DNA of 38,990 bases, from assembly GCA_002898575.1 (NCBI GenBank), contig BEHT01000033.1, positions 1-38,990 of the forward strand. Direction: 5' to 3'. Position 1 is the first letter of the stretch. Each line of letters starts with the position of its first letter. Below the pieces are notes generated by a model. The model saw only the letters and a program-made list of their open reading frames with translations, had not been told where the DNA came from and did not search any database. The DNA comes from a bacterium HR17. Its GTDB lineage: Bacteria > Armatimonadota > Fervidibacteria > Fervidibacterales > Fervidibacteraceae. This document shows, piece after piece, positions 326 to 31,107 of the stretch. The position numbers and the translations under genes are program-made.

Positions 326-435
326 ACGAGCGCTCATTGTCCGTCGCCCGCCCCCATCTTACCGCGAGGTTGCAACCTATCGTCCGCCATGTCTTTCAAA
401 AATTTGCGCGCAGCAAGGCAGGTGAGCAAAGATGA
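322..435 (+). CDS. possible 37-residue small ORF bridging nosF and nosY
   Basis: An ATG at 322 overlaps the stop of the ATPase gene as ATGA. The frame runs to a TGA at 433-435 that overlaps the ATG of the permease gene, again as ATGA. The 37-residue product (starts MNERSLSVARPHL) is basic, has no membrane segment and resembles nothing I recognise. Overlaps at both ends are what translational coupling would give. The alternative is a non-coding spacer that is open by chance, because the permease has its own Shine-Dalgarno sequence (AGGTGA) inside this ORF. Confidence 0.3.
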   Translation: MNERSLSVARPHLTARLQPIVRHVFQKFARSKAGEQR

Positions 436-1265
436 AGGCACTTGAGTTCGCTACCCTCGCAACGATTGCCCACAAAGGCTTGCACGATGCCAAGCGCCAC
501 CGTTGGTTCGTTACCTTCACGGTGCTGTTTGCGGTTGTGGGGTTGGCGTTGAGCGCATCGGGGTTCCTGAGCGCAGGGACACTTAGCGTCGCGGGGTTCG
601 GGCGAACGACCGCCAGTTTGGTCAACTTCGTTTTGCTCCTCGTCCCCTTGATGGGGCTGCTGTTGGGCGCGTTGAGCGTTGCCACAGAACGGGAGCAAGG
701 GACACTGGAAATGTTGCTAACACAACCGATTATCCCCGCTGAATTGCTTTTAGGCAAATGGTTGGGTTTGGCGGGCGCTTTGGCGGCAGCCGTGACGCTC
801 GGTTTCGGGTTGAGCGCCTTCGTCATCGCCTTCTCCGCCACAGCGGAGCAATTAGGCAGTTACCTGACCCTATGGCTTTTCACACTCTCGCTCGGTTGGG
901 CACATTTAAGCGTTGGGATGTTGCTCTCTGTCGCAGCACCCAAAAGCAGCACCGCTGTCAGTTGGGCGCTGTTTTTGTGGCTTACCGTCGTCCTGCTCAG
1001 CGATTTGGGCGTGTTGGGCACCGCCATCGTGTTGCGCTTATCGCCGCAATCGCTCCTTTGGCTGGCGCTTTTCAATCCTGCTCAAGTTTTTCGCATCGCA
1101 GTGCTCCGCGCCTTGCAAGGCAACTTGGAACTTTTGGGCGCAACGGGCATGTATGCCACCGAAGTGTTTGGCAAAGCGCTTTTGACTTTCCTGACAGCGT
1201 TGCTTGCTCTTTGGGTCGTCGCGCCGATGCTCATCGCTTTGTGGCTCTTTGCGCGTCGCCCATAA
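432..1265 (+). CDS. nosY: ABC-2 type permease, NosY-like
   Basis: This 277-residue integral membrane protein has about six hydrophobic segments. The N-terminus, containing TIAHKGLHDAKRHRWF, has the form of NosY and related ABC-2 permeases: a short cytoplasmic amphipathic stretch before the first membrane helix. It is followed by ATEREQGTLEMLLTQPI, the coupling-helix region conserved in this family. The length matches NosY (about 270-280 residues). It would form the transmembrane part of the transporter with the ATPase encoded just upstream. NosDFY is thought to supply sulfur or handle copper for the CuZ centre of N2O reductase. An AGGTGA Shine-Dalgarno lies about 6 bases before the ATG. NosL follows after 36 bases, so the genes are very likely one operon. 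nosZ and nosD would be expected upstream of the window. Confidence 0.8.
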   Translation: MKALEFATLATIAHKGLHDAKRHRWFVTFTVLFAVVGLALSASGFLSAGTLSVAGFGRTTASLVNFVLLLVPLMGLLLGALSVATEREQGTLEMLLTQPIIPAELLLGKWLGLAGALAAAVTLGFGLSAFVIAFSATAEQLGSYLTLWLFTLSLGWAHLSVGMLLSVAAPKSSTAVSWALFLWLTVVLLSDLGVLGTAIVLRLSPQSLLWLALFNPAQVFRIAVLRALQGNLELLGATGMYATEVFGKALLTFLTALLALWVVAPMLIALWLFARRP

Positions 1266-1301
1266 GGAGCCTGACGACTCGCGTTAAAGCGGTGATGCTT
1301 G

Positions 1302-1733
1302 ATGCGGTATTGGCAATTTGCCATTGGCTTGTTGCTCTTGCCGATAGGGTGCAAAGCGGATTTGGAGGCGCCGCCCAAAGTGCAATGGGGCGAAGAGCCT
1401 TGCGCCCATTGCCGCATGCTTATCAGCGACCCGCGGTTTGCAGCGGCGCTGACGCTCCAAAACGGCGAAATTCGCAAGTATGACGATGTGGGTTGCTTGC
1501 TAAAGGACTATGCTACCCATAAAGCGCAAGTCCATCGTGTTTGGGTGCGCTGTTACGACAGCGACAAGTGGTTGGACGCACAGCAAGCGTGGTTTGTCCG
1601 CAGCAAAGGATTGCATAGCCCGATGGCTTCTGGCATCGCTGCCGTCCAAAGTAAAGATGCCGCTGAACGCTTGGCAAACGCTGTCAAAGGCACAGTGTCG
1701 CGCTTTGATGCTGTGTTGAATGAACGGGATTGA
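1302..1733 (+). CDS. nosL: NosL, copper-binding lipoprotein of nitrous oxide reductase maturation
   Basis: A 143-residue exported lipoprotein. A short hydrophobic signal ends in the lipobox LPIGC (lipidated Cys17). It is followed by EPCAHCRMLISD (Cys34, Cys37, Met39), the Cys/Met-rich motif typical of NosL. The segment GEIRKYDDVGCLL and the later MASGIAAV stretch are also family features. NosL is an outer-membrane-anchored Cu(I) chaperone that delivers copper to NosZ. The start is ATG 1302; a TTG directly before it (1299) is in frame and cannot be excluded. No strong Shine-Dalgarno is close, so the gene may depend on read-through from nosY. It ends just before repeat array 1. Confidence 0.9.
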   Translation: MRYWQFAIGLLLLPIGCKADLEAPPKVQWGEEPCAHCRMLISDPRFAAALTLQNGEIRKYDDVGCLLKDYATHKAQVHRVWVRCYDSDKWLDAQQAWFVRSKGLHSPMASGIAAVQSKDAAERLANAVKGTVSRFDAVLNERD

Positions 1734-3810: not shown

Positions 3811-5259
3811 TCATTGGGTCCACCGCATCGCCTGCCGCAAGCGTTGCAAGTCCGACCGCAGTACGGCTTGGATGTCCCGACGCGACAGGCGGCTCACGAC
3901 CTGAGGCGCTATGCGGGGCACACCGATGGTATCCAGTTGTCGGTTGGCGATGGTAAGGAGGTGGCGGGTGTAAGAGGCGTTGTGGACACCGAAACTGGCA
4001 TCGCGCAAAATAAAGTAGTAGTTGTGGCGTGCTCGCTTGACCTGAATCGGCACCTGCCCCTGAGGCGGTGCTGTTTTACCCAGTTCGGCGATGAGGGCTG
4101 TGTAGTCCCACAAGTCAGGGTCGCCGAAGGTTTGCTGCGCCCAACTCCGCAACCGCGTCCGCAAGGCAAAAAGGGCCAACTGGATTTCGTCCTTCACTGC
4201 ACCCGCTCGCGCTGCCGCGTCAGCGGGCGTGTGGCACGGGGCGCAACCTTTATCGTAACTGACGGTGAAGGTGTGACGGTAGTCGGGCATGTGGCAATGG
4301 ACGCATTGCTCGGGCGCCTCGGCATGAGCCATGCGGCGCATAGACATCGGCAAACTGGGGTCTTGCCCTCCGGCATCGCTCTCCACGCCACCGATACCCA
4401 TCAGCATGTTGAACTGGTTGCTCTCGTGCATGTTAGGGCGAGCGGTCCCCGTTTGCAACGCTTGGTCGGATGGGTTCGCCCCGCGCCCGTTGTGGCAGGT
4501 GGCACAGGTGTGGTTAAAGGTCGTGTGCAACTTCGGCGGTGTGCCCGGCGCAACCGGCGCAGTGTCAGTGTTGAACCGCGCATAGCGGGGCTTGACAGAG
4601 TGAGCCGTGTGGCAGGTCGCGCAAGTCGCTGTCTCGTGGCTGACAGGGAGATAGGCGAGCAATTGGTCATTGGAGAGGGCAGCAATTTGGGCGTCAATCT
4701 GGTCAGGCGAAACACCTTCCGAAAGCGGTTCGTCTACCAACTCCATACGGAACGGAGCACTGTGGCAACGGTAGCAAACGGCGACATAAAGGCGGGGGTT
4801 GGCACTGACGAAATTGGCGTCCGCCAGTTCACCCACCATTTCCGCATGAGCGGATCGACGAAACTCGTCAAATTGCGGACCGTGACATTGCCCACAAACG
4901 ACCGAACGGGTGATATTGGGGTAGGTCAGGATGTTGTTTTTGCTGGGCGCTTTGACATGCTCGCTGCCAGGACCGTGACACCGTTCGCAACCGACATTGA
5001 CTTGGGCGTGACGGCTCTGCGCCCATTTGTTGTGGAAATTTTGATGGCAGCTAGCGCACCGCTCGGTGCCGACGAAGGTGGCGTTCCGCTGCCCTTCGGG
5101 CAAAAGAGCGACGAACTCTGCCGAGGGAGACGGAGGCGTTGCCGGTGTGGGTGGGCGCAACGGTCCACCGCCACCGCCGCAGCCGTAAAGGGCGAGGAGA
5201 GTCGCCGCCATTGTCACCGCTGCTCCCGCAAGTGAAGCGACGAGCCATTGCCTTTGCAT
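3811..5259 (-). CDS. octahaem c-type cytochrome, predicted lipoprotein
   Basis: A 482-residue exported protein with a lipobox-like LALYGC ending at Cys27, followed by a Gly/Pro-rich linker. There are eight CXXCH haem sites: residues 68, 91, 122, 162, 213, 252, 319 and 339. The region after residue 355 is mostly helical and contains DASFGVHNASYTRHLL, a form also seen in the helical C-termini of c554/NrfA/HAO-like multihaem proteins. The start ATG 5259 is chosen for its Shine-Dalgarno (GGGAGGA) and the signal peptide that follows; longer frames upstream give no signal. It lies downstream of the barrel and decahaem genes, the position held by surface cytochromes (MtrC-like) in porin-cytochrome operons, though it is not clearly homologous to MtrC. 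It could instead be a periplasmic reductase or electron carrier. Leaflet and side of the outer membrane cannot be read from sequence. Confidence 0.85.
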   Translation of the reverse strand: MQRQWLVASLAGAAVTMAATLLALYGCGGGGGPLRPPTPATPPSPSAEFVALLPEGQRNATFVGTERCASCHQNFHNKWAQSRHAQVNVGCERCHGPGSEHVKAPSKNNILTYPNITRSVVCGQCHGPQFDEFRRSAHAEMVGELADANFVSANPRLYVAVCYRCHSAPFRMELVDEPLSEGVSPDQIDAQIAALSNDQLLAYLPVSHETATCATCHTAHSVKPRYARFNTDTAPVAPGTPPKLHTTFNHTCATCHNGRGANPSDQALQTGTARPNMHESNQFNMLMGIGGVESDAGGQDPSLPMSMRRMAHAEAPEQCVHCHMPDYRHTFTVSYDKGCAPCHTPADAAARAGAVKDEIQLALFALRTRLRSWAQQTFGDPDLWDYTALIAELGKTAPPQGQVPIQVKRARHNYYFILRDASFGVHNASYTRHLLTIANRQLDTIGVPRIAPQVVSRLSRRDIQAVLRSDLQRLRQAMRWTQ

Positions 5260-5331
5260 CGCCTCATTCCTCCCTTCTAAAAGGCTCTTGTTCGCTTCCG
5301 CCAACACCTTAGTGGCGCCTTGTCTGCGCCG

Positions 5332-5345
5332 CTGTCGGGGAAACT
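5332..5345 (-). promoter_or_regulatory. CTGTCGGG-containing site upstream of the octahaem gene
   Basis: CTGTCGGGGAAAC (plus-strand reading) lies about 73 bases before the octahaem ATG in a 104-base gap. The same 8-mer occurs upstream of the pentahaem gene (9001) and the radical SAM gene (10251). It may be a shared operator, but the 8-mer also occurs by chance inside coding sequence elsewhere. Confidence 0.25.
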
Positions 5346-5363
5346 TTGAGCGCTTTGGGTTGA

Positions 5364-6941
5364 TCAAAACCGAGCACTCCCTGAGAGCAACACGAGAGTC
5401 GCTTCGTAGTCCATCCAATCTACGACGCGGTCGCGATAGCGCCAAGGTGCGACCGTCAAGGCGAGTTCATAGCCAGCGGGAAAGCGATAACGCCAGACCC
5501 CCGTCAGAAAACGACCCTTGTAGTTGCCGTCCCGCAAAAGCAACGGGTTGTCGTTGGCGGTTACGAATTCCGTGAAGGTGAGGGAAAGGAAATTGCGACG
5601 GTCCATCGCCCAATTCAGCCCGAGGCTTGCCACGCGGCTGTTGGGGAAGAAGTTATCCAGTGTCGGGAACGCCGCCGTTACCCTCGTCGCCCACCATGCC
5701 TCGTAAGCGTATTCGGCAAAAAGGTTCAAGCGCGCATTTACTTGCCATGTCCCACCTAAAGTTAAGGCATCGGTCGTCACCCTAACGGCGCGCCCTTCGT
5801 TTTCCCATCGCCGCCGGTTCAGCGCCAAATAGCCGTTCAAAGAAGGTGAGCCTCCTTCCAGACGCAGTTGAAGGAATTGACGGTCGTCCCAGACGAGTTG
5901 GCGGGGATCGGTCGTGCCCATCGTCGGCAAATGCGTCAAGTGCTGCCAACCACCGCGCAGGGTGAGCCGCCACCGAGGGGCAAGGCGTCCCGACAAGCGT
6001 ACCTCAACGGTGCGCCATCGGGGCACCTCCACGAAACTTTGATCTCTCCGCAACCGTTCGTTCTCCTGTTGCCGAAAAACCACTTGCAGTGCCCATCCTC
6101 GCCATCGGTGGACAAGGTGAGCGATCGCCAACCGTCGCTCCCGCACCCACGCGTTTTGCACGACGGGCAAATCCCATTTGTCCCGACGCAGCAGCAAAGT
6201 GATGTCCGTCGCCGACGACAATGTCCAATCGCTGCTCACCGCCAGCGATTCTCCACGGCTGTTGGGGCGTAACGGCTGGCGAATAGTGAAGCGGTGGAAA
6301 CCCACTTCCACGCCTCCGCGCTCGTCGGGCGACCACAGGTAATTGGCGTGCCAACGCCGGATAGCTGTGTCGGGGCGAATATCGGTGCGGTCAAAGAAGC
6401 GGAAGTCGGTGTAGCCCAAACTGAGGCGTCCTTCCCCGACTTTTCCTTCAGCGACAGCGTCCCAAAAGCGCGTCCGCTGCCGCAAGGGCAACTTCGGCGC
6501 CTCAAAAAATTGGTCTTGCTGATCCATGCGGTAACGAAAGGCGACGGAGAAATCAGGGGTGAGCAAAAACTTCATCGCCCCTTCCCGAACGGCGCGGGTG
6601 CTGGGCAGTAAGACGGTCGGGGTTGGGTCAAAGAAACGATAACGGCTTACCGACATCTCCCATTGCGTCCGACCAAACAGAAACGCGAGGTTGCCTTCGG
6701 CTCGGTAATCGTTGCGTTCGCTGCCTTTGAAGGCAAACCAACCACTGCGGTCTCCGAGAACGGGCAAGGTGTAGCGGAAAGGGTTCAACAACAGCCCCTT
6801 TGCCGGCGTCGCATATTGGCGCAGTTTGTGTTCGTTACCGTCCAGCGACCAAGTGCCCAACCCAACATCCATCTCAGCAACTTGAGCGAAAGCCGTAGAT
6901 ATTGCGAGGCTTATCAGCGACACCGTCACTTTGGCACGCAT
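5364..6941 (-). CDS. outer-membrane beta-barrel protein, MtrB/PioB-like porin of a cytochrome conduit
   Basis: This 525-residue protein has a cleavable signal peptide (MRAKVTVSLISLAISTAFA, then QVAE). It is followed by a long run of alternating hydrophobic/polar strands rich in Trp, Tyr, Arg and Phe, ending in a terminal Phe (SGSARF) as barrel proteins usually do. The N-terminal part, with a Gly-rich start and RQYATPAKG, recalls MtrB/PioB, the barrel that sheaths a decahaem cytochrome across the outer membrane. MtrB is longer (about 650-700 residues) and has an N-terminal CXXC in many relatives; no such motif is visible here. The main support is its position, 27 bases after an MtrA/DmsE-type decahaem gene and upstream of a multihaem lipoprotein gene. 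The barrel call is firm. The family call is moderate. Confidence 0.75.
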   Translation of the reverse strand: MRAKVTVSLISLAISTAFAQVAEMDVGLGTWSLDGNEHKLRQYATPAKGLLLNPFRYTLPVLGDRSGWFAFKGSERNDYRAEGNLAFLFGRTQWEMSVSRYRFFDPTPTVLLPSTRAVREGAMKFLLTPDFSVAFRYRMDQQDQFFEAPKLPLRQRTRFWDAVAEGKVGEGRLSLGYTDFRFFDRTDIRPDTAIRRWHANYLWSPDERGGVEVGFHRFTIRQPLRPNSRGESLAVSSDWTLSSATDITLLLRRDKWDLPVVQNAWVRERRLAIAHLVHRWRGWALQVVFRQQENERLRRDQSFVEVPRWRTVEVRLSGRLAPRWRLTLRGGWQHLTHLPTMGTTDPRQLVWDDRQFLQLRLEGGSPSLNGYLALNRRRWENEGRAVRVTTDALTLGGTWQVNARLNLFAEYAYEAWWATRVTAAFPTLDNFFPNSRVASLGLNWAMDRRNFLSLTFTEFVTANDNPLLLRDGNYKGRFLTGVWRYRFPAGYELALTVAPWRYRDRVVDWMDYEATLVLLSGSARF

Positions 6942-6968
6942 CCTTCATCACCGTCCGATGGCAGGCGG

Positions 6969-7946
6969 TCATGGCTGTCGCAGCAAGAGATCGCTGTTGG
7001 ACCCGTGCACCGCTGCATGGCAACCTGCCTCCCAGCAACTTCGCCCAGGGTAGTGGTCGTTGCCCTTGTCGGTGTGGCACTGGTTGCACAAGCCGCGCGA
7101 AAAGGCGTTCAAAAGGTGCGGGTTGGGAGAGCCGTGCGGGCGATGGCATTCGGTGCACCCTTCTCCCGTCCAACCTGCAACGGGGTCGTGCTCAAACGCA
7201 AAAGGACCGACTTTTTCAGCGTGGCAGGTGACGCACATCTCCTTGACGGCGGAGACCTTTTTGCGGGTCGCTTTGCTGGGATGGATATCGTGACAATCGC
7301 TGCAGACCATTCGCCCTTCGGGAAGGGGATGGTGAAAGTTGAGGCGAAATTCGCTGACTTCCCGTTGATGGCAGCGCCCGCAAACCGTTACCTCACCAGC
7401 CTTTAGCAGCGCCTTCGGTTCGGGAGCAGTCGCAAAAAGTTGCCTCAACGGCGCCCCGTCGCTCGTTCCCTTCCCTGCCATCCCTTGCCCCTCGCCCCGA
7501 TGAATTTGGTGACACTCGGCGCAAGATACATCAGCTTGCGCATGAACGGTGCGCTGCCATTGAGCGAGGCGCATCGTGTCGGCGTGGCATCGCAGGCAGG
7601 CAAGGGCAATTTCTTTTGGCTTGGCTTTGGTGAAACTAACGACCCTCGTGGTGTCTTTGACCTCTTCCAGATGGATTTCGCCTGGACCGTGACAGGCTTC
7701 GCAGCCTTGTTTGTCACGGGGAAGACGAGGGTTGCGGACATAGAGGGCGTGGGGGGAAGCGGCGAAAGTTTGTGCCTGCGGTCTGTGACATTGGACACAT
7801 TCTTTTTCGCCGATGAAGTCTTCGGGTTTTGCTTGGGCGAAGAGGTTGAGGGGGAAAGGAGCCGGTTGGGGTTTTTCCTTGCCGGCGACGAGAACGAGTG
7901 CCCATAAAAGCAGCGTTACCGTTGTGACCGTTTGCCACTTCAACAT
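6969..7946 (-). CDS. DmsE/MtrA/PioA-type decahaem c-type cytochrome
   Basis: A 325-residue exported protein close in length and layout to MtrA of Shewanella. A signal peptide covers about residues 1-22. Nine CXXCH sites start at residues 50, 82, 117, 142, 189, 215, 238, 264 and 287, and a tenth site is CWEAGCH at 304-310, a CX4CH variant. Family landmarks are GCEACHGP, VSCAECHQIH, CSDCHDIH, CTECHRPHGSPN and the final GCHAAVHGSNS. Known members form a periplasm-to-surface haem wire inside an MtrB-type barrel. The start is ATG 7946, preceded by GAGGGGG about 9 bases upstream. It lies 22 bases after the pentahaem gene and 27 bases before the barrel gene, so tight co-expression is expected. Electron donors could be the pentahaem protein or an inner-membrane quinol oxidase encoded elsewhere. 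Confidence 0.9.
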   Translation of the reverse strand: MLKWQTVTTVTLLLWALVLVAGKEKPQPAPFPLNLFAQAKPEDFIGEKECVQCHRPQAQTFAASPHALYVRNPRLPRDKQGCEACHGPGEIHLEEVKDTTRVVSFTKAKPKEIALACLRCHADTMRLAQWQRTVHAQADVSCAECHQIHRGEGQGMAGKGTSDGAPLRQLFATAPEPKALLKAGEVTVCGRCHQREVSEFRLNFHHPLPEGRMVCSDCHDIHPSKATRKKVSAVKEMCVTCHAEKVGPFAFEHDPVAGWTGEGCTECHRPHGSPNPHLLNAFSRGLCNQCHTDKGNDHYPGRSCWEAGCHAAVHGSNSDLLLRQP

Positions 7947-7968
7947 CGCTGTCGCCCCCTCAGGCGCG

Positions 7969-8949
7969 TCAAGGCACAGCGACTTTCGTCTCAAACAACA
8001 CGGTCGCTTTTTCGTCGGGCAAGTCGCGAAGAGGTTTGTGCAAAATGCGGACGACCGCTTCGCCCTTTTTACCTTCCAGCGGGATAACGATTTCGCGGGT
8101 TTCGCCCGGTTTCAAGCGCGTGTCGTTGCCGCCCTGCGCCCGTTCGTCCGCGAGCACAGTTTGATGGCGCAAAACTTCTTGTCCTCCGCTGACGAGGCGC
8201 ACATCAACGACAGCGACGACGGTGTCTATGCCCGTCGGAAAGTTATGCCCGACTTCCACGCTTGTCAGGCGCACCGTCAATCGGTCACCGCTGAGATCGG
8301 TTTCCACTTTCACGCCTCTACGGAACATTTCTGGGTCAGCACCTTTGAAGGTGTGGACATGGGCGGGGCGCTCGGGCGAGTCCAAAGCGATGGGGCGTTG
8401 GGTCGCAGGCATGTGGCAAGTCACACACGATTTGGGGTCGCTGCCCCACTTTGTCCCTTTGAACTCTTGCACGGTGCCGAACTTGGCGTGGCAGGTGGCG
8501 CATTGCTCCACCGTCCCGAACCGCTCGTTTTTGACCGTCGGGTGTTTGTCGGTGACGGTGCCGAGGGTGCCGTGATGGGCGCCATTGGCATCTTCGTGGC
8601 AGGCGACGCAATCCACGCCATGCTCTGGCAACTCGTTACGCAAGGACGGCTCTTTGCCAAAACCCGTCACCAAGATGCGGTCAGGGGCATGGCAATGCAG
8701 GCACTCTTTGCGGGTGCGGTTAGCGGTGGCGGCAACGAAGGCGTCGCTGGTCCACGCTTTGGCATGTGCCGATTGCACCCATTCAAGGGCTTCGGTGCGG
8801 TGGCAAACTTGGCAGCGCCCACGCAGGCGGGGCAGCCGCGATGGCGGCGTTGGCTCCTGATGAACGAACGCCGTCGCCACCGTCAATGCCAGCGCCAACC
8901 CAATCCCCGTTACCACCGACCATCGCGGGCTGCCCTTTAACCTGCCCAT
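7969..8949 (-). CDS. membrane-anchored pentahaem c-type cytochrome with C-terminal beta domain
   Basis: A 326-residue protein. One hydrophobic segment (residues 10-29) could be a signal anchor or a signal peptide. Five CXXCH sites follow at residues 46, 83, 114, 150 and 175. The C-terminal third lacks haem motifs and looks like a beta-sandwich. It carries VGHNFPTG (233-240), a motif recurrent in c554-like multihaem proteins, where a His may serve a haem. It probably passes electrons from the quinone pool or inner membrane to the decahaem protein encoded next, which would be a CymA/NrfH-like role; it is not an obvious NapC/NrfH homologue. ATG 8949 has GAGGAGG 8 bases upstream. Longer upstream frames have no ribosome site and run through a probable regulatory gap. 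Confidence 0.85.
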   Translation of the reverse strand: MGRLKGSPRWSVVTGIGLALALTVATAFVHQEPTPPSRLPRLRGRCQVCHRTEALEWVQSAHAKAWTSDAFVAATANRTRKECLHCHAPDRILVTGFGKEPSLRNELPEHGVDCVACHEDANGAHHGTLGTVTDKHPTVKNERFGTVEQCATCHAKFGTVQEFKGTKWGSDPKSCVTCHMPATQRPIALDSPERPAHVHTFKGADPEMFRRGVKVETDLSGDRLTVRLTSVEVGHNFPTGIDTVVAVVDVRLVSGGQEVLRHQTVLADERAQGGNDTRLKPGETREIVIPLEGKKGEAVVRILHKPLRDLPDEKATVLFETKVAVP

Positions 8950-9023: not shown

Positions 9024-10184
9024 TCACCCGCACAGCGCCGTTGCGGGGTGTGGCTTTTGGAACGCTTTGGGGCGGTAGATACAGTAGGGATCGCTGCGTA
9101 GGTAATCGCCCGTGACAGCGTAAGCGCGGGCACGGCTGCCCCCGCAAATGTGCCGAAATTCACAGACACCGCATTTGCCCTTGAGCAAATCGGGGTTGCG
9201 CAGTTGGCGCAGCAACGGTGCGGTGCGGTAAATTTCTGCCAACGGTTTTTGGCGAACGCTGCCGACCCCCAACGGCAGAAAACCGCTGGGCTGCACGACA
9301 CCGACATGGGAAACGAAGACGACACCTTTACCGTCGTTGACACCCATCGGTGCGCGGACGATTTTAGGGCGCTGCGAGGCTGGCACAAGGTCGGTCGGAC
9401 GCAAGTTTTTCTCGGTCGTTTGTCGCAACAACGCTTCAACGGGAACGCCCAACTCCTGGGCTCGCCGCTGCAGCATGACGCGCCGATAGTGGTAACCTTC
9501 GCGGGGCGTGATGTCGTAAGGAGCGGATTTGCTCAGGTCATACATCCAGTGAAAGACACGCTCAAAGTCGTAGGGTGAAATGTTCAGGCGACGCATCTCA
9601 GGGCGGGCAGCGCGCCCGACGGCGATGAGGAAAAAGAGCGCCCACAGTTTGATGTCCCATTCAGCGATCATGTCGGCGATGACGGGTAAGTCCGCCAAAC
9701 TGTGGCGGGTCACAGTCGTGTGGATTTGCGCCTCAACACCGAATTCCCGACACCAATTCAAAATGCGCACGGTGTGGGCGAACGACCCTTGAACGCCCCG
9801 AAAACCGTCGTGCACTTCGGGTGTGCTGCCGTCAAGGCTCAACGCCAACCGCACCAAGCCGGCTTCCGCCAACCGCCGCACTGCGTCACGGGTGACCAAC
9901 GGGGTCGCAGAAGGCGTCATCGCGACGCGGATGCCTTGTTGCGTCGCATACGCCACGATGTCAAAGATGTCAGGGCGTTTCATCGGGTCACCGCCTGTCA
10001 AAATTAGCAACGGGTAAGGTTGTCCGAACTCTTTGAGCATGTCCACCAACCGAAACGCTTCCTGTGTCGTCAACTCAAAGGGGTGACGGTCGGGAACGGC
10101 GTCGGCACGACAATGTAGGCACACCAAATCGCAGGCGCGGGTCGTCTCCCAAATGACCGTAAACGGACGCTGGTTGAAGTTCAT
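9024..10184 (-). CDS. radical SAM/SPASM protein (TIGR04053-like, related to NirJ/AhbD/PqqE)
   Basis: A 386-residue cytoplasmic enzyme. The radical SAM cluster motif is CX3CX2C at Cys18, Cys22 and Cys25 (ETTRACDLVCLHCRA), and the SAM-binding GGDP follows (ILTGGDPMKRPD). A C-terminal SPASM region has Cys338, Cys341, Cys347 and Cys368 (CGVCEFRHICGG, then DPYC) for an auxiliary Fe-S cluster. The opening PFTVIWETTRACDL is the form of the TIGR04053 subfamily, whose substrate is unknown but which is related to haem-modifying enzymes NirJ and AhbD. ATG 10184 follows AAAGGGGG; longer upstream frames run into the divergent promoter region. As first gene of the cytochrome operon it could act in haem or cofactor maturation, or merely be co-regulated. 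Confidence 0.85.
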   Translation of the reverse strand: MNFNQRPFTVIWETTRACDLVCLHCRADAVPDRHPFELTTQEAFRLVDMLKEFGQPYPLLILTGGDPMKRPDIFDIVAYATQQGIRVAMTPSATPLVTRDAVRRLAEAGLVRLALSLDGSTPEVHDGFRGVQGSFAHTVRILNWCREFGVEAQIHTTVTRHSLADLPVIADMIAEWDIKLWALFFLIAVGRAARPEMRRLNISPYDFERVFHWMYDLSKSAPYDITPREGYHYRRVMLQRRAQELGVPVEALLRQTTEKNLRPTDLVPASQRPKIVRAPMGVNDGKGVVFVSHVGVVQPSGFLPLGVGSVRQKPLAEIYRTAPLLRQLRNPDLLKGKCGVCEFRHICGGSRARAYAVTGDYLRSDPYCIYRPKAFQKPHPATALCG

Positions 10185-10323: not shown

Positions 10324-12081
10324 ATGGCGCCAAACCAAATGGCGAAGTTGCTGCAATCGGGCGTCTTGCTGCGGTTTGATTTGACCGTCAACGAGTTGCT
10401 GCAACGCATCGTGGAGACAGCGCGCCATGTCATCGGTGCTCAATACGCCGCACTGGCGGTGCTGGACGACGAAGGAGGTATCGCTCACTTTGTCTATGCG
10501 GGGCTGAGCAAGGAAGATGCCGACCGTATCGGCGAACTGCCCAAAGGGCGAGGCGTTTTGGGGCTCATCATCCACGAGGGCAAAGTGCTGCGGTTACGCG
10601 ATGTCCGTCAACACCCCAAAGCGTGGGGTTTTCCGCCCCACCACCCGATCATGCGGTCGTTTTTGGGTGTGCCCATCTTCGTCAACGGCAAACCTTACGG
10701 ACGCCTTTACATGACGGAGAAGCAGGGCGGAAAAACTTTCACCAAGCGGGACGAGGAATTGGCGAAGCTGCTGGCGGCACAAGCAGGGGCAGCGATTGAA
10801 CGGGCGATGCTCACCGAACGGGTTCGCCAAGCGGAACGGCTGAAGAGGCTCAACGAACTGCTCAGCACTCTGAACCGCTTGACGGATGAGCAGGCGATTT
10901 TAGCAGCGATTTTAGCGGGCGTGCAAAAGGCGTTGCCGTTCGCTGAGGCGTCCCTTTGCCTTTACCGCGCAGCCGATGACACTTTCAGCGGTTGCGTCGC
11001 TACGCCCAGCGGACGGCTGAGCCAGTTGCACGAACGCTGGCGGCGTCGCCCTATCGCCGCGACACGGACGCCCTTTTTGCCCTGCGTGCGGGAGCGGCGG
11101 TCGGTGCGCGTGAACGATTTGGTCACACCCCGAACGCCTTTTGAGCGCTGGTTGCAGCGCAAAGGGTTCCGCAGTTTCATCGGCACGCCCATTAGCGTGG
11201 ACGGCGAAGTGTTAGGGCTGCTGTTTGTCGCTGCCGACTATGCGAATGCGTTCAGCGACGACGACCACGCTTTTTTGAGCGCTGTCGCCGAGCACGCCGC
11301 AGCGACGCTGAAAAACGCACGGCTGCTAACGCAACTGCAGGAAAAGGAGCGGGTGCGAGGGTTGCTGCTCAACAAGGTCGTGACAGCGCAAGAGGAAGAG
11401 CGCCGTCGCATCGCCCACGAACTGCACGACCAAACGGGACAGTTGCTGACGGCGCTGCTCATTCAGTTGCAACTGTTGGAGCGCGAACTGCGAGACGAAC
11501 GCCGCCGAGAACGGGTGAGCAATCTGCGCCGGTTAGCTGACAGCATCGCCCAAAACCTGCACCACATCGCGTGGGAGTTGCGTCCGCCGTCGCTGGACGA
11601 ACTGGGGTTGACGGCAGCGCTGGAACGCATGGTCAGCGATTGGTCGGAGCGCTTTCAAATCCCGTGCGATTTGGTGCTGGACAGCGAGGGCGATTTAAGC
11701 GTGTCGCCTGAGATCGCCATCGGTATCTACCGCATCGTCCAAGAGGCACTGACAAATGTTGCTAAGCACGCCAAAGCCACACGGGCAAAAGTGACGCTGC
11801 AACGGGCTGACCGCGTGTTGCGTGTCGTCGTGGAAGACAACGGCGTCGGGTTTGACCCGTCAGCCATCTTGCGCCATCCCGACGAGACGAAACGGTTGGG
11901 CTTGGTCGGGATGATGGAGCGGGCGGCGATGTTGTCGGGACGCCTAACCGTGGACTCGCACCCCAAACGCGGCACGAAAGTCGTCTTGGAAGTGCCGTTG
12001 ACGACGATACCGGTGCGGGACGATAGGCAAGGGGGTGTCGCTGATGCGCCGAGCCAACAACGCCCTGTCGCAACCGCTTGA
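10324..12081 (+). CDS. sensor histidine kinase with two GAF domains (DosS/DevS-like first GAF)
   Basis: A 585-residue cytoplasmic kinase without membrane segments. GAF1 spans roughly residues 15-165, GAF2 185-335, a HisKA_3 dimerisation helix 345-420 and HATPase 470-560. The phosphate-accepting His368 lies in HELHDQTGQ. The N-box is EALTNVAKHAKA, and the ATP lid motifs are EDNGVGFDPS and GLVGMMERA. GAF1 contains GFPPHHPIMRSFLGVPI and GRLYMTEK, very close in form to the DosS/DevS haem-binding GAF that senses O2/NO/CO. His106 and His107 are candidate haem ligands, but haem binding is inference. The Shine-Dalgarno GAGGGAG lies 8 bases before ATG 10324. The regulator gene overlaps its 3' end. It is transcribed divergently from the cytochrome operon, which suggests the pair controls it. 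Confidence 0.88.
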   Translation: MAPNQMAKLLQSGVLLRFDLTVNELLQRIVETARHVIGAQYAALAVLDDEGGIAHFVYAGLSKEDADRIGELPKGRGVLGLIIHEGKVLRLRDVRQHPKAWGFPPHHPIMRSFLGVPIFVNGKPYGRLYMTEKQGGKTFTKRDEELAKLLAAQAGAAIERAMLTERVRQAERLKRLNELLSTLNRLTDEQAILAAILAGVQKALPFAEASLCLYRAADDTFSGCVATPSGRLSQLHERWRRRPIAATRTPFLPCVRERRSVRVNDLVTPRTPFERWLQRKGFRSFIGTPISVDGEVLGLLFVAADYANAFSDDDHAFLSAVAEHAAATLKNARLLTQLQEKERVRGLLLNKVVTAQEEERRRIAHELHDQTGQLLTALLIQLQLLERELRDERRRERVSNLRRLADSIAQNLHHIAWELRPPSLDELGLTAALERMVSDWSERFQIPCDLVLDSEGDLSVSPEIAIGIYRIVQEALTNVAKHAKATRAKVTLQRADRVLRVVVEDNGVGFDPSAILRHPDETKRLGLVGMMERAAMLSGRLTVDSHPKRGTKVVLEVPLTTIPVRDDRQGGVADAPSQQRPVATA

Positions 12082-12718
12082 CCGCATTCGCGTGTTGATC
12101 GCCGACGACCACGCTATTTTGCGGGACGGGTTGAAAGCGTTGCTCGCAGCAGAAACCGACATGGAAGTCGTCGGCGAAGCGGCAACAGGCAAAGAGGCAC
12201 TGCGGTTGGTGCGCGAACTAAAACCCCATGTCGTCTTGATGGACATCTCTATGCCCGACATGACAGGCTTAGAGGCAACAGAGGTCATCAAAAAGTCCTA
12301 TCCAGAAGTAAAGGTCATTGCGTTGACGGTGCATGAGCACGAGACTTATTTGCGGCGGATGCTGCAGGTGGGAGCAGATGGCTATGTCGTCAAGCGGGCG
12401 GCAGCGGACGAATTGGTGCGCGCCATTCGGGCGGTCATGCGAGGCGGCGTTTACTTGCAGCCTGAACTCGCCCAAACCGTCGTCAAAAAGCGCACCGAAC
12501 AGAGTATGCCCAAGTTGAGCGAGCGGGAATGGCAAGTGCTGCGCCTGCTGGCGATGGGTTACACCAACCAGCAAATTGCCCAGCGCCTCTTTCTGAGCGT
12601 CAAGACAGTGGAGACCTACCGGAGCCGCATCGCCGACAAACTGGGGTTGAAGACGCGAGCGGAGTTGGTCAAGTTCGCCTTGCAGCACAACCTGTTGGCA
12701 GAAGAACCTGACCCGTAA
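12044..12718 (+). CDS. NarL/LuxR-family response regulator
   Basis: A 224-residue regulator. The receiver domain carries the acidic pair Asp21-Asp22, phospho-acceptor Asp67 (VVLMDISMPDMTG), a Thr in ALTVHE and the Lys in VVKRAA. A LuxR-type HTH follows at about 156-215 (LSEREWQVLRLLAMGYTNQQ, then KTVETYRSRI). The start is ATG 12044, placed 8 bases after AAGGGGG; GTG 12035 is an alternative. The gene overlaps the kinase gene by 38 bases, so the two form a cognate pair. NarL-family regulators control many anaerobic respiratory operons. The divergent cytochrome operon and the FecR-domain gene downstream are likely targets, by inference. Confidence 0.92.
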   Translation: MRRANNALSQPLDRIRVLIADDHAILRDGLKALLAAETDMEVVGEAATGKEALRLVRELKPHVVLMDISMPDMTGLEATEVIKKSYPEVKVIALTVHEHETYLRRMLQVGADGYVVKRAAADELVRAIRAVMRGGVYLQPELAQTVVKKRTEQSMPKLSEREWQVLRLLAMGYTNQQIAQRLFLSVKTVETYRSRIADKLGLKTRAELVKFALQHNLLAEEPDP

Positions 12719-16284: not shown

Positions 16285-16375
16285 TCGTGCCTTTTAGGTG
16301 TCATCGGAACATGGGTGATACGCGCAATGACCCACCCAAACACCCTTTTGGTCTTCGTTTGCTGTGTTGAATAAT

Positions 16376-16976
16376 TCGGAGGGCGGCTCTCCTGAGCTGC
16401 CGCAAGGAAATCGGCGCGTCAAGAGACGCGCCCTCCGAAGGTTGAAGGTTTGTTCGGAGGGCGGCTCTCAGAGCCGCCGCAAGGAAATCGGCGCGTCAAG
16501 AGACGCGCCCTCCGAAGGTTGAAGGTTTGTTCGGAGGGCGGCTCTCAGAGCCGCCGCAAGGAAATCGGCGCGTCAAGAGACGCGCCCTCCGAAGGTTGAA
16601 GGTTTGTTCGGAGGGCGGCTCTCAGAGCCGCCGCAAGGAAATCGGCGCGTCAAGAGACGCGCCCTCCGAAGGTTGAAGGTTTGTTCGGAGGGCGGCTCTC
16701 AGAGCCGCCGCAAGGAAATCGGCGCGTCAAGAGACGCGCCCTCCGAATGTTGAAGGTTTATTCGGAGGGCGGTTCTCCTGAGCCGCCAAAAACCAAACGG
16801 CGCGTCAGAAAACGCGCCCTCCGAAGGTTGAAGGTTTGTTCGGAGGGCGGCTCTCCTGAGCCGCCGAAAAGAAATTGGCGCATCAGGAGATGCGCCCTCC
16901 GAGTGTTGAAGGTTTTTCGGAGGGCGGCTCTCCTGAGCCGCCGAAAATTGGTGCGTCAGAAGACACGCCCGCCGAG
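16376..16976. repeat. structured tandem repeat array 2 (eight units)
   Basis: Eight units start at 16376, 16454, 16531, 16608, 16685, 16762, 16840 and 16917, a period of 77-78 bases. They lie between the convergent jelly-roll (+) and VWA (-) genes. The 63-base core has outer arms TCGGAGGG/CCCTCCGA around hairpins GGCGGCTC/GAGCCGCC and GGCGCGTC/GACGCGCC, the same as array 1. The linker AGGTTGAAGGTTTGT differs from that of array 1. Units 2-5 are essentially identical and the flanking units diverge, consistent with recent expansion in the middle. Unit 7 has GGCGCATC/GATGCGCC, a paired change that keeps the stem. Units 1 and 6 have changes compatible with G-U pairs. The last unit is the most decayed. 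Confidence 0.93.
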
Positions 16977-29549: not shown

Positions 29550-31046
29550 TTAACGCTGTGACAGCGGTGTGCGGGCGAGTTTGCGCAACTCGCGCTCCAC
29601 GATTTCGTGCACCTCCGCCCATTCCTCCCGTGCCCGCCGATATTCGGCGGCGGCTAAAGTAATTTGCTCGTCTACCTGTTCCCGATAGGCTTCCAGTGCC
29701 AAGAAGCAAAGGGCGGCATATTCGGGGTCAATCATGCCGTTGCGCGCCAGCTCCAAGTAGCGGTAAAAATTACTCGCGCCCCCTGCCGTCGTCGCGCCGG
29801 GCGCGCCGGGTGCTCCGAACATCCCTGGTGCCCCTGGCATGCCCGGAGCGCCAGGCATTGGGGCTTCACCTGCCATTTCAGGGGGCATCCCTGGAGCGCC
29901 CGGCATCGCTCCGGGTGGCATTGCTCCGGGGGGCATCATGGCTCCTGGCGCCATCATGCCCGGAGGACCGCCAGGTCCCATCGGTCCGGGTGCCCCTGGC
30001 ATGCCAGGCATTCCAGGCGCTCCCAACATCCCCGGACCACCTGCCCCTGCGGCGACCGTTGTCCCCCCGACCAACTGCGCCCCCAATGATTGCAGACGCT
30101 GTAGAATTACCGTCCGCGACTCAGGAAACCAGTTCAACACCTCGGATAAGGTTTCACGCCGGTTCGTCAAGCCCAATCGCACAATGCGCTGCGGGATAGG
30201 TTCTCCCGGAAGCGGGGCGAGAACGGAGTTCAGTTCTGCGGCAACGAGCGGTGAGGGTTGACCCCGCAGCACCAATTGCGATAACCGCCACACGGACAGC
30301 CGTGCCCGCGCGGCGACAGGTAAAAGCGCCCGTTGGAGCGTTTCAACCCGCCATCGGATTTCCCGCCAGAGGCTCAAGTTCGTAGCCGCTTGTGCCACCC
30401 GCTGCTCGGCTTGCTGCAAGGGTAACCGTAAAGACGCCACAGAGAGAGTCCGCATGCCCAACTCTTTGACCGCCTCAGGCGCCGTCGGGCGCGATGTAGC
30501 ACCGTGCAAACGATGCACGCGGGGCACCGCGCGCAACGACGACGGTGCACTGACGCGTCGTTCCCGTCGCGCCAAAGCGACTTTGCGCACCGAGGGTTTA
30601 GGTGGCGCTGGCGGTGCAGTTAGCGCCTTTCTCCACGCAGCAAAGTTAATGTGGCAGTTTGTCTCCGGCACCAGTTGAGCGACACCGGTCGCCAACAAGC
30701 GTCGGTTCACGCTGCGCCACTGTCCTTGTTCGGTGTAAAACACTTCCGCACGCACATTTCCGGCGTTGTCTTTGGGCGTCTTCGGGCAAATTTCCACGCG
30801 CACCAGTTTGCCTTCCAGCCAACTTTTGACCAACTCAAAGGCTTTGTTGTATTGCGGCGTATTTTCGGGCACTTGAACGCCGATCAATCGCACCGTCCCG
30901 ACGCCTTCAATCTGTAACAGGGTCGGACTTTGAACGGCAGAGCAAACATAGACGCCGCTTTTAGGGACAGGTGCTTCTTGCGCCAGCGCCAACAGCGTCA
31001 AAGCAGATAAAACACCGATCGCCAGCCAACATAACCCACGCACCAT
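29550..31046 (-). CDS. exported protein: SNase-like domain plus Gly-Pro-Met collagen-like region
   Basis: A 498-residue protein. A signal peptide (MVRGLCWLAIGVLSALTLLA) is followed by a staphylococcal-nuclease-like domain at about 30-145, with VGTVRLIGVQVPEN, GNVRAEVF and VNRRLLATGVAQLVPE in the order expected for SNase. A basic/helical middle follows (about 150-335). Residues 336-423 are almost only Gly, Pro, Ala and Met in GAPGMPG-like triplets. The last 75 residues are helical and acidic (EEWAEVHEIVEREL). SNase catalytic residues are only partly kept, so nuclease activity is uncertain; the fold may serve for binding. ATG 31046 is preceded by AAAAGGAGG. It lies between nuoN and rpsO on the same strand; no functional link is obvious. 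Confidence 0.75.
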   Translation of the reverse strand: MVRGLCWLAIGVLSALTLLALAQEAPVPKSGVYVCSAVQSPTLLQIEGVGTVRLIGVQVPENTPQYNKAFELVKSWLEGKLVRVEICPKTPKDNAGNVRAEVFYTEQGQWRSVNRRLLATGVAQLVPETNCHINFAAWRKALTAPPAPPKPSVRKVALARRERRVSAPSSLRAVPRVHRLHGATSRPTAPEAVKELGMRTLSVASLRLPLQQAEQRVAQAATNLSLWREIRWRVETLQRALLPVAARARLSVWRLSQLVLRGQPSPLVAAELNSVLAPLPGEPIPQRIVRLGLTNRRETLSEVLNWFPESRTVILQRLQSLGAQLVGGTTVAAGAGGPGMLGAPGMPGMPGAPGPMGPGGPPGMMAPGAMMPPGAMPPGAMPGAPGMPPEMAGEAPMPGAPGMPGAPGMFGAPGAPGATTAGGASNFYRYLELARNGMIDPEYAALCFLALEAYREQVDEQITLAAAEYRRAREEWAEVHEIVERELRKLARTPLSQR

Positions 31047-31107
31047 CCCGCTGTCGCCTCCTTTTGCGGCTGGCAAAGATTGTAAAACAGCACAGATGCG
31101 GCGTCAA

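Follow-up and report, generated by a model that had tools for sequence, protein, structure and literature searches.

A proposed compact Mtr-like porin-cytochrome conduit, probably electron-exporting, in the Armatimonadota bacterium HR17

Gene content of the locus

The stretch of DNA analyzed here (the window) is contig 33 (BEHT01000033.1; 38,990 nucleotides) of the draft genome of bacterium HR17 (3.15 Mb, 96% complete), a member of the Armatimonadota. This phylum is little studied and represented mostly by uncultured genomes. On the minus strand, between positions 3811 and 8949, the window carries four genes transcribed in the order pentahaem cytochrome, decahaem cytochrome, outer-membrane beta-barrel and octahaem lipoprotein, which together resemble the outer-membrane conduits of the Mtr/Pio kind. 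The features of the locus are the following:

3811–5259, minus strand: octahaem lipoprotein, 482 aa, OmhA/OcwA-like, presumed to form the conduit's surface end (eight CxxCH motifs, lipobox, profile and Foldseek matches)
5179–5181, minus strand: codon of the invariant lipobox cysteine, Cys27 (...LLALYGC/GGGG, no Asp at +2; homologue alignment)
5364–6941, minus strand: compact outer-membrane beta-barrel, 525 aa, 26 strands, MtrB-like fold (AlphaFold2, Foldseek, C-terminal Phe)
6969–7946, minus strand: MtrA/DmsE-type decahaem cytochrome, 325 aa, presumed in-barrel wire (TIGR03508, 6r2q_A, ten haem motifs)
7017–7037, minus strand: haem-10 motif CWEAGCH, with CX4CH replacing CX2CH (decahaem comparison)
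7969–8949, minus strand: pentahaem cytochrome with a c554-like haem region, presumed periplasmic donor (five CxxCH motifs, PF13435)

The first-pass annotation had described four adjoining minus-strand genes with gaps of 22, 27 and 104 bases, and its coordinates agree with ours. Its total of 23 haem motifs also holds, with eight in the octahaem, ten in the decahaem, five in the pentahaem and none in the barrel protein, although the tenth decahaem motif is CX4CH and only the other nine are CxxCH. Of the 24 CxxCH strings present in all six frames of the window, 22 fall inside the three cytochrome reading frames, compared with approximately 0.35 expected from their share of the space.

The decahaem cytochrome and its haem 10

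The assignment of the decahaem to the DmsE/MtrA type was confirmed by TIGR03508 (203.2 bits, cut-off 192.2). The protein also matched MtrA of Shewanella baltica (6r2q_A) at E 9e-31; chain A of this entry bears an unrelated deposited molecule name, while the entry itself is the Mtr complex. Among ten homologues from the phylum, 11 non-motif histidines are invariant, which is enough for bis-His ligation of ten haems.

The tenth haem motif is CX4CH in 64 out of 64 compact-type Armatimonadota decahaems (the window one counted, three rows being duplicates), nearly always in the form CWxxGCH. In comparison, the other 69 decahaems have CX2CH at this position, the sole exception being an unclassified metagenome-assembled genome (MAG), L079. 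As judged from these alignments, CX4CH at haem 10 is a diagnostic marker of the compact Armatimonadota type. The contact with MtrC in MtrCAB is made by haem A10 (PMC7198977), so the change is located at the presumed exit haem, and it may adapt the interface to a different surface protein. In the decahaem tree, the 58 Armatimonadota core rows formed one clade with a Shimodaira-Hasegawa-like approximate likelihood ratio test value (SH-aLRT) of 100, which favors long residence in the phylum over recent scattered transfer.

Two further loci deserve mention. In L079, which comes from Lac Pavin sediment, the CX4CH decahaem adjoins a barrel of 674 aa and an octahaem-like protein with nine motifs, possibly an intermediate between the compact and the ordinary types. 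A groundwater Armatimonadota MAG (L103) has an ordinary CX2CH decahaem beside an 805-aa barrel, so a second conduit type is present in the phylum.

The outer-membrane barrel

The barrel protein has a terminal Phe (...SARF) and no haem motif. It gave no match to NCBIfam or Pfam, including the MtrB/PioB models TIGR03509 and PF11854, and TIGR03509 found nothing in the whole HR17 genome even at E 10. Neither the single sequence nor the profile gave anything meaningful against the PDB sequences, and the contig scan with the single sequence returned no relative. Since TIGR03509 did not match, membership was judged by fold instead.

The AlphaFold2 model, built with ten homologues, reached a predicted local distance difference test score (pLDDT) of 81 and consists of a signal-peptide helix and 26 strands, the number also found in the MtrB barrel (PMC7198977). 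The top Foldseek match in the PDB was MtrB itself (6r2q_B; template-modelling score normalized to the query, TMq, 0.76; root-mean-square deviation 6.2 Å; 10% identity), and the other barrels in the list had TM values of 0.41–0.51. In a profile-profile alignment with 50 decahaem-adjacent barrels of Acidobacteria and other phyla, a probability of 99.4% was obtained over 494 columns; such scores are possibly inflated for barrels, and the fold match therefore carries more weight. Thus, of the earlier proposal of an MtrB/PioB-like barrel, the fold part stands for the predicted model, with MtrB as the nearest structure, and the family-model part does not. For 26 strands, geometry gives an expected backbone diameter of 46–48 Å, so the barrel is not too narrow as far as the strand count goes. 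The barrel of a distant relative in the phylum (L051) reached 18.9 bits with PF11854, below the cut-off of 23. The standard MtrB/PioB model misses this whole barrel class.

The octahaem lipoprotein

The lipobox cysteine, Cys27, is kept in 10 of 10 octahaem homologues and followed by Gly or Ala in all of them. A profile of ten homologues had OmhA (6qvm, E 2e-18) and OcwA (6i5b, E 5e-17) as its top hits; the identification of 6qvm as OmhA relies on PMC7829351 and on the entry being described as the undecahaem cytochrome of the Carboxydothermus ferrireducens S-layer. The AlphaFold2 model had a pLDDT of 58 overall, while most of the C-terminal helical region was at 73–91. With this pLDDT-58 model, Foldseek also ranked 6qvm best (E 4e-5, the only significant match) and 6i5b next (E 0.07), at TM of about 0.2. 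As the model is weak, the kinship with OmhA/OcwA rests mainly on the sequence profile. The protein also passes the short domain model PF22113 (46 bits against 30).

OcwA consists of a haem domain and a C-terminal three-helix bundle, is kin to NrfA, c554 and MccA and is unrelated to MtrC; its C-terminal helical feature is common to NrfA, HAO and MccA (PMC6703420). Membership of the HR17 protein in the OmcA/MtrC family was rejected, as TIGR03507 did not match and the profile search, at E 0.01, returned no structure of the MtrC/OmcA kind. Seven invariant and one nearly invariant non-motif histidines, together with the lack of a CXXCK motif, are consistent with an all-bis-His electron carrier but are not proof of it. 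By its sequence, the protein resembles OmhA/OcwA, which suggests that an Mtr-like conduit can end in a cytochrome of this type rather than of the MtrC type.

Conservation of the cassette and the place of the pentahaem

The barrel profile found members in 74 of the 291 genomes of Armatimonadota, or in 58 out of 194 when only the good genomes are counted, and in 42 of 156 genera. At E < 1e-60, the octahaem profile found 60 of the 291 genomes, all of them within the barrel's 74. Fisher's test on this co-occurrence gave p 4e-49, a value that overstates independence because the genomes are related. Among 61 barrels above 100 bits, the decahaem was present upstream of 56 and the octahaem downstream of 51, with both partners at 47; several of the barrels lacking a flanking partner were at contig ends. 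Hence, the core gene order decahaem-barrel-octahaem is conserved in the phylum. The cassette is followed in one family by a CcmF-type gene for cytochrome maturation. In a Chthonomonas-like MAG (L060/L150), the decahaem-barrel pair is tandemly duplicated, with a small open reading frame with one haem motif between the copies.

The pentahaem is not a part of this core. It passes PF13435 (33 bits, over the cut-off) and has a haem-free C-terminal domain, and its gene stands beside the cassette in HR17's own family only, for which reason it was rejected as a core component. In another family, an extra eight-motif cytochrome is encoded between barrel and octahaem, in place of the pentahaem. The pentahaem is presumed to be a family-specific accessory serving as periplasmic electron donor. 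The first-pass annotation had called it membrane-anchored, but its N-terminus (...LTVATAFVHQ) is equally compatible with a cleaved signal peptide. It had also singled out the pentahaem and the octahaem as nonstandard Mtr parts; this fits the octahaem, with its OmhA/OcwA likeness. The pentahaem lies outside the conserved core.

Overall, the reading of the locus as an Mtr/Pio-like conduit is well supported, by sequence for the decahaem, by predicted fold for the barrel and by phylum-wide synteny for the cassette.

Comparison with known systems

Like MtrCAB of Shewanella (6r2q; TIGR03508, TIGR03509, TIGR03507), the HR17 locus encodes an MtrA-homologous decahaem, a predicted 26-strand barrel and, as the third member, a multihaem surface lipoprotein. 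As opposed to MtrCAB, its barrel has only about 525 aa and escapes the MtrB/PioB models, haem 10 is bound by CX4CH, the third protein is an OmhA/OcwA-like octahaem and not an OmcA/MtrC, and CymA is missing from the genome. The Fe(II)-oxidizing conduits MtoAB and PioAB share the MtrA-type decahaem with an adjoining barrel; HR17 differs from them in having a surface octahaem lipoprotein and no RuBisCO. OmhA (6qvm, C. ferrireducens) and OcwA (6i5b, Thermincola potens) have a C-terminal region like that of the octahaem (DxSxGVHN...LL..A). However, they are surface cytochromes of Gram-positive thermophiles, whereas the HR17 protein is a lipid-anchored octahaem with a conduit partner in a diderm. 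The Pcc system of Geobacter (OmbB-OmaB-OmcB) is a similar trio of a small barrel, a periplasmic multihaem and an outer-membrane multihaem cytochrome, but its barrels are predicted to have 18–22 strands and are described as phylogenetically unrelated to Mtr (PMC4245776), as opposed to the 26 strands and the MtrA-family decahaem in HR17. With the models of GSU2203/GSU2204-type pairs (NF041028, NF041027), the HR17 decahaem reached 194 bits on NF041028, under the curated cut-off of 325, and NF041027 (cut-off 350) gave weak matches with barrels of some relatives and of Acidobacteria and none with the window barrel.

Proposed mechanism and alternative explanations

In the proposed mechanism, the decahaem would be exported and sheathed in a short-loop, 26-strand MtrB-type barrel. 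Its outermost, CX4CH-bound haem would pass electrons to the octahaem, which would sit on the outer leaflet, exposed at the surface, as the terminal electron-exchanging protein. More tentatively, the net flow would be outward, reducing Fe(III)/Mn oxides, humics or similar acceptors when oxygen is short, and the pentahaem, specific to this family, may act as the periplasmic donor and receive its electrons from the quinol pool. Electron export is favored, though not proven, by the presence of a surface cytochrome, which Fe(II)-oxidizing mtr clusters often do not have (PMC4245776), by the description of OmhA/OcwA as reductases and by the lack of RuBisCO in the HR17 genome. The likely explanation, in which we have good confidence, is a compact Mtr-like porin-cytochrome conduit that ends in an OmhA/OcwA-like protein and probably exports electrons.

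Several points weigh against it. MtrCAB can operate in both directions (PMC8805035), so the direction is not determined by the kind of system. The 96%-complete genome has neither a NapC/CymA (PF03264) nor an NrfD-type quinol oxidoreductase, and it offers other acceptor routes, with four COX1-type matches, two bc-type cytochrome b genes and nosZ. Moreover, the MtrB/PioB models TIGR03509 and PF11854 leave the barrel unmatched, the model of the octahaem is poor (pLDDT 58, global TM about 0.2), and insertion of the decahaem is inferred.

The same conduit might be run inward, as has been proposed for MtoAB and PioAB, with the octahaem oxidizing Fe(II), Mn(II) or another donor and the electrons passing to cytochrome oxidases. 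The COX1-type oxidases and the reversibility of Mtr systems (PMC8805035) speak for such a flow, as does the MtoA-like gene of another Armatimonadota MAG, placed nearer to PioA/MtoA than to MtrA/DmsE (PMC9671151). Nonetheless, we consider it unlikely: RuBisCO is absent, a dedicated surface cytochrome of the kind often missing from oxidizing mtr clusters (PMC4245776) is present, and the kin of the octahaem, OmhA and OcwA, are described as reductases.

In another explanation, the conduit would feed the octahaem as a surface reductase of nitrite, hydroxylamine or another small molecule, belonging to the NrfA/octahaem superfamily; DmsEFAB, a conduit supplying an extracellular reductase, would be the analogue. 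The C-terminal helical region and its motif are common to the NrfA/OcwA superfamily, weak matches to octahaem nitrite reductases were obtained, and OcwA slowly reduces nitrite (PMC6703420). The octahaem, however, has no CXXCK motif, its 7 + 1 conserved histidines can ligate all eight haems with no obvious open site, and no molybdopterin reductase occurred among the neighboring genes examined, which makes this role rather improbable. Least probable of all is the absence of any trans-membrane wire, whereby the decahaem and the pentahaem would be periplasmic electron stores beside an unrelated porin. It would agree with the lack of direct proof of a complex and of a family-model match for the barrel but hardly with the MtrB-like 26-strand predicted fold, the strict gene linkage across the phylum and the MtrA homology of the decahaem.

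Neighboring genes and other features of the window

The genes next to the cassette on its upstream side are:

9024–10184, minus strand: TIGR04053 radical SAM/SPASM protein (475 bits, cut-off 395)
10324–12718, plus strand: GAF histidine kinase and LuxR-type response regulator, divergent (Pfam domains)

The radical SAM gene lies 74 bases upstream of the cassette and is possibly co-transcribed with it; its membership is uncertain, and it was rejected as a core part because few relatives have a homologue of it close to the cassette. The histidine kinase and the LuxR-type regulator are possible candidates for regulators of the cassette. Scans of the window for promoters and terminators gave no excess over shuffled sequences, and Rfam and tRNA scans of the window found nothing.

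On the other side, an ABC-2 permease and NosL (window 432–1733) adjoin the conduit; nosZ (828 bits) is located on HR17 contig 9, and these genes indicate a potential for nitrous oxide reduction. A second, larger island on HR17 contig 24 (3000–21000; L056) encodes cytochromes with approximately 5, 8, 6, 10 and 13 haem motifs, the ten-motif one with LVIVD repeats, along with a cNMP-binding/4Fe-4S protein and an HbpS-like protein.

Two tandem arrays, at 1792–2134 (about 90 nt x 3.7) and 16375–16943 (77 nt x 7.4), have palindromic G+C-rich pieces in common (TCGGAGGGCGGCTCTC..GAGCCGCC and GGCGCGTCAAGAGACGCGCC) and are a dispersed, intergenic repeat family resembling repetitive extragenic palindromes (REP-like). 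A 508-aa protein encoded at 29550–31076 on the minus strand has a collagen-like, Gly/Pro-rich middle stretch (GMPGAPGPMGPGGPPG...).

Novelty and significance

The first-pass annotation regarded the lineage as an unexpected one for such a locus, and this is partly so: a survey located mtrCAB in three phyla, with no mention of the Armatimonadota (PMC8805035), while an MtoA-like gene in one Armatimonadota MAG has been on record since 2022 (PMC9671151). Another MAG of the phylum was reported to have multihaem cytochromes that are embedded in the membrane and whose function is unknown, together with a candidate nitrite reductase of the octahaem type (PMC11788075). The literature searched, with most subscription journals and preprints outside its range, contained no account of the compact barrel, of a third subunit resembling OmhA/OcwA, of an exit haem on CX4CH or of a cassette spread across the phylum. 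The chances seem evenly balanced that these features define a phylum-wide conduit class missed by surveys based on hidden Markov models, with a CX4CH-exit MtrA wire, a minimal 26-strand barrel and an OmhA/OcwA-type terminus.

If so, one complex would unite the Mtr wire of diderms with the OcwA-type terminus of Gram-positive thermophiles, which were described as independent inventions, and the CX4CH haem would be an adapted interface between the two. CWxxGCH at haem 10 offers a simple sequence marker and a testable hypothesis on that interface. Close cassettes occur in about a quarter of the Armatimonadota species with sequenced genomes. Extracellular electron transfer is predicted for these species, so members of this phylum may pass electrons to, or take them from, minerals or other extracellular materials.

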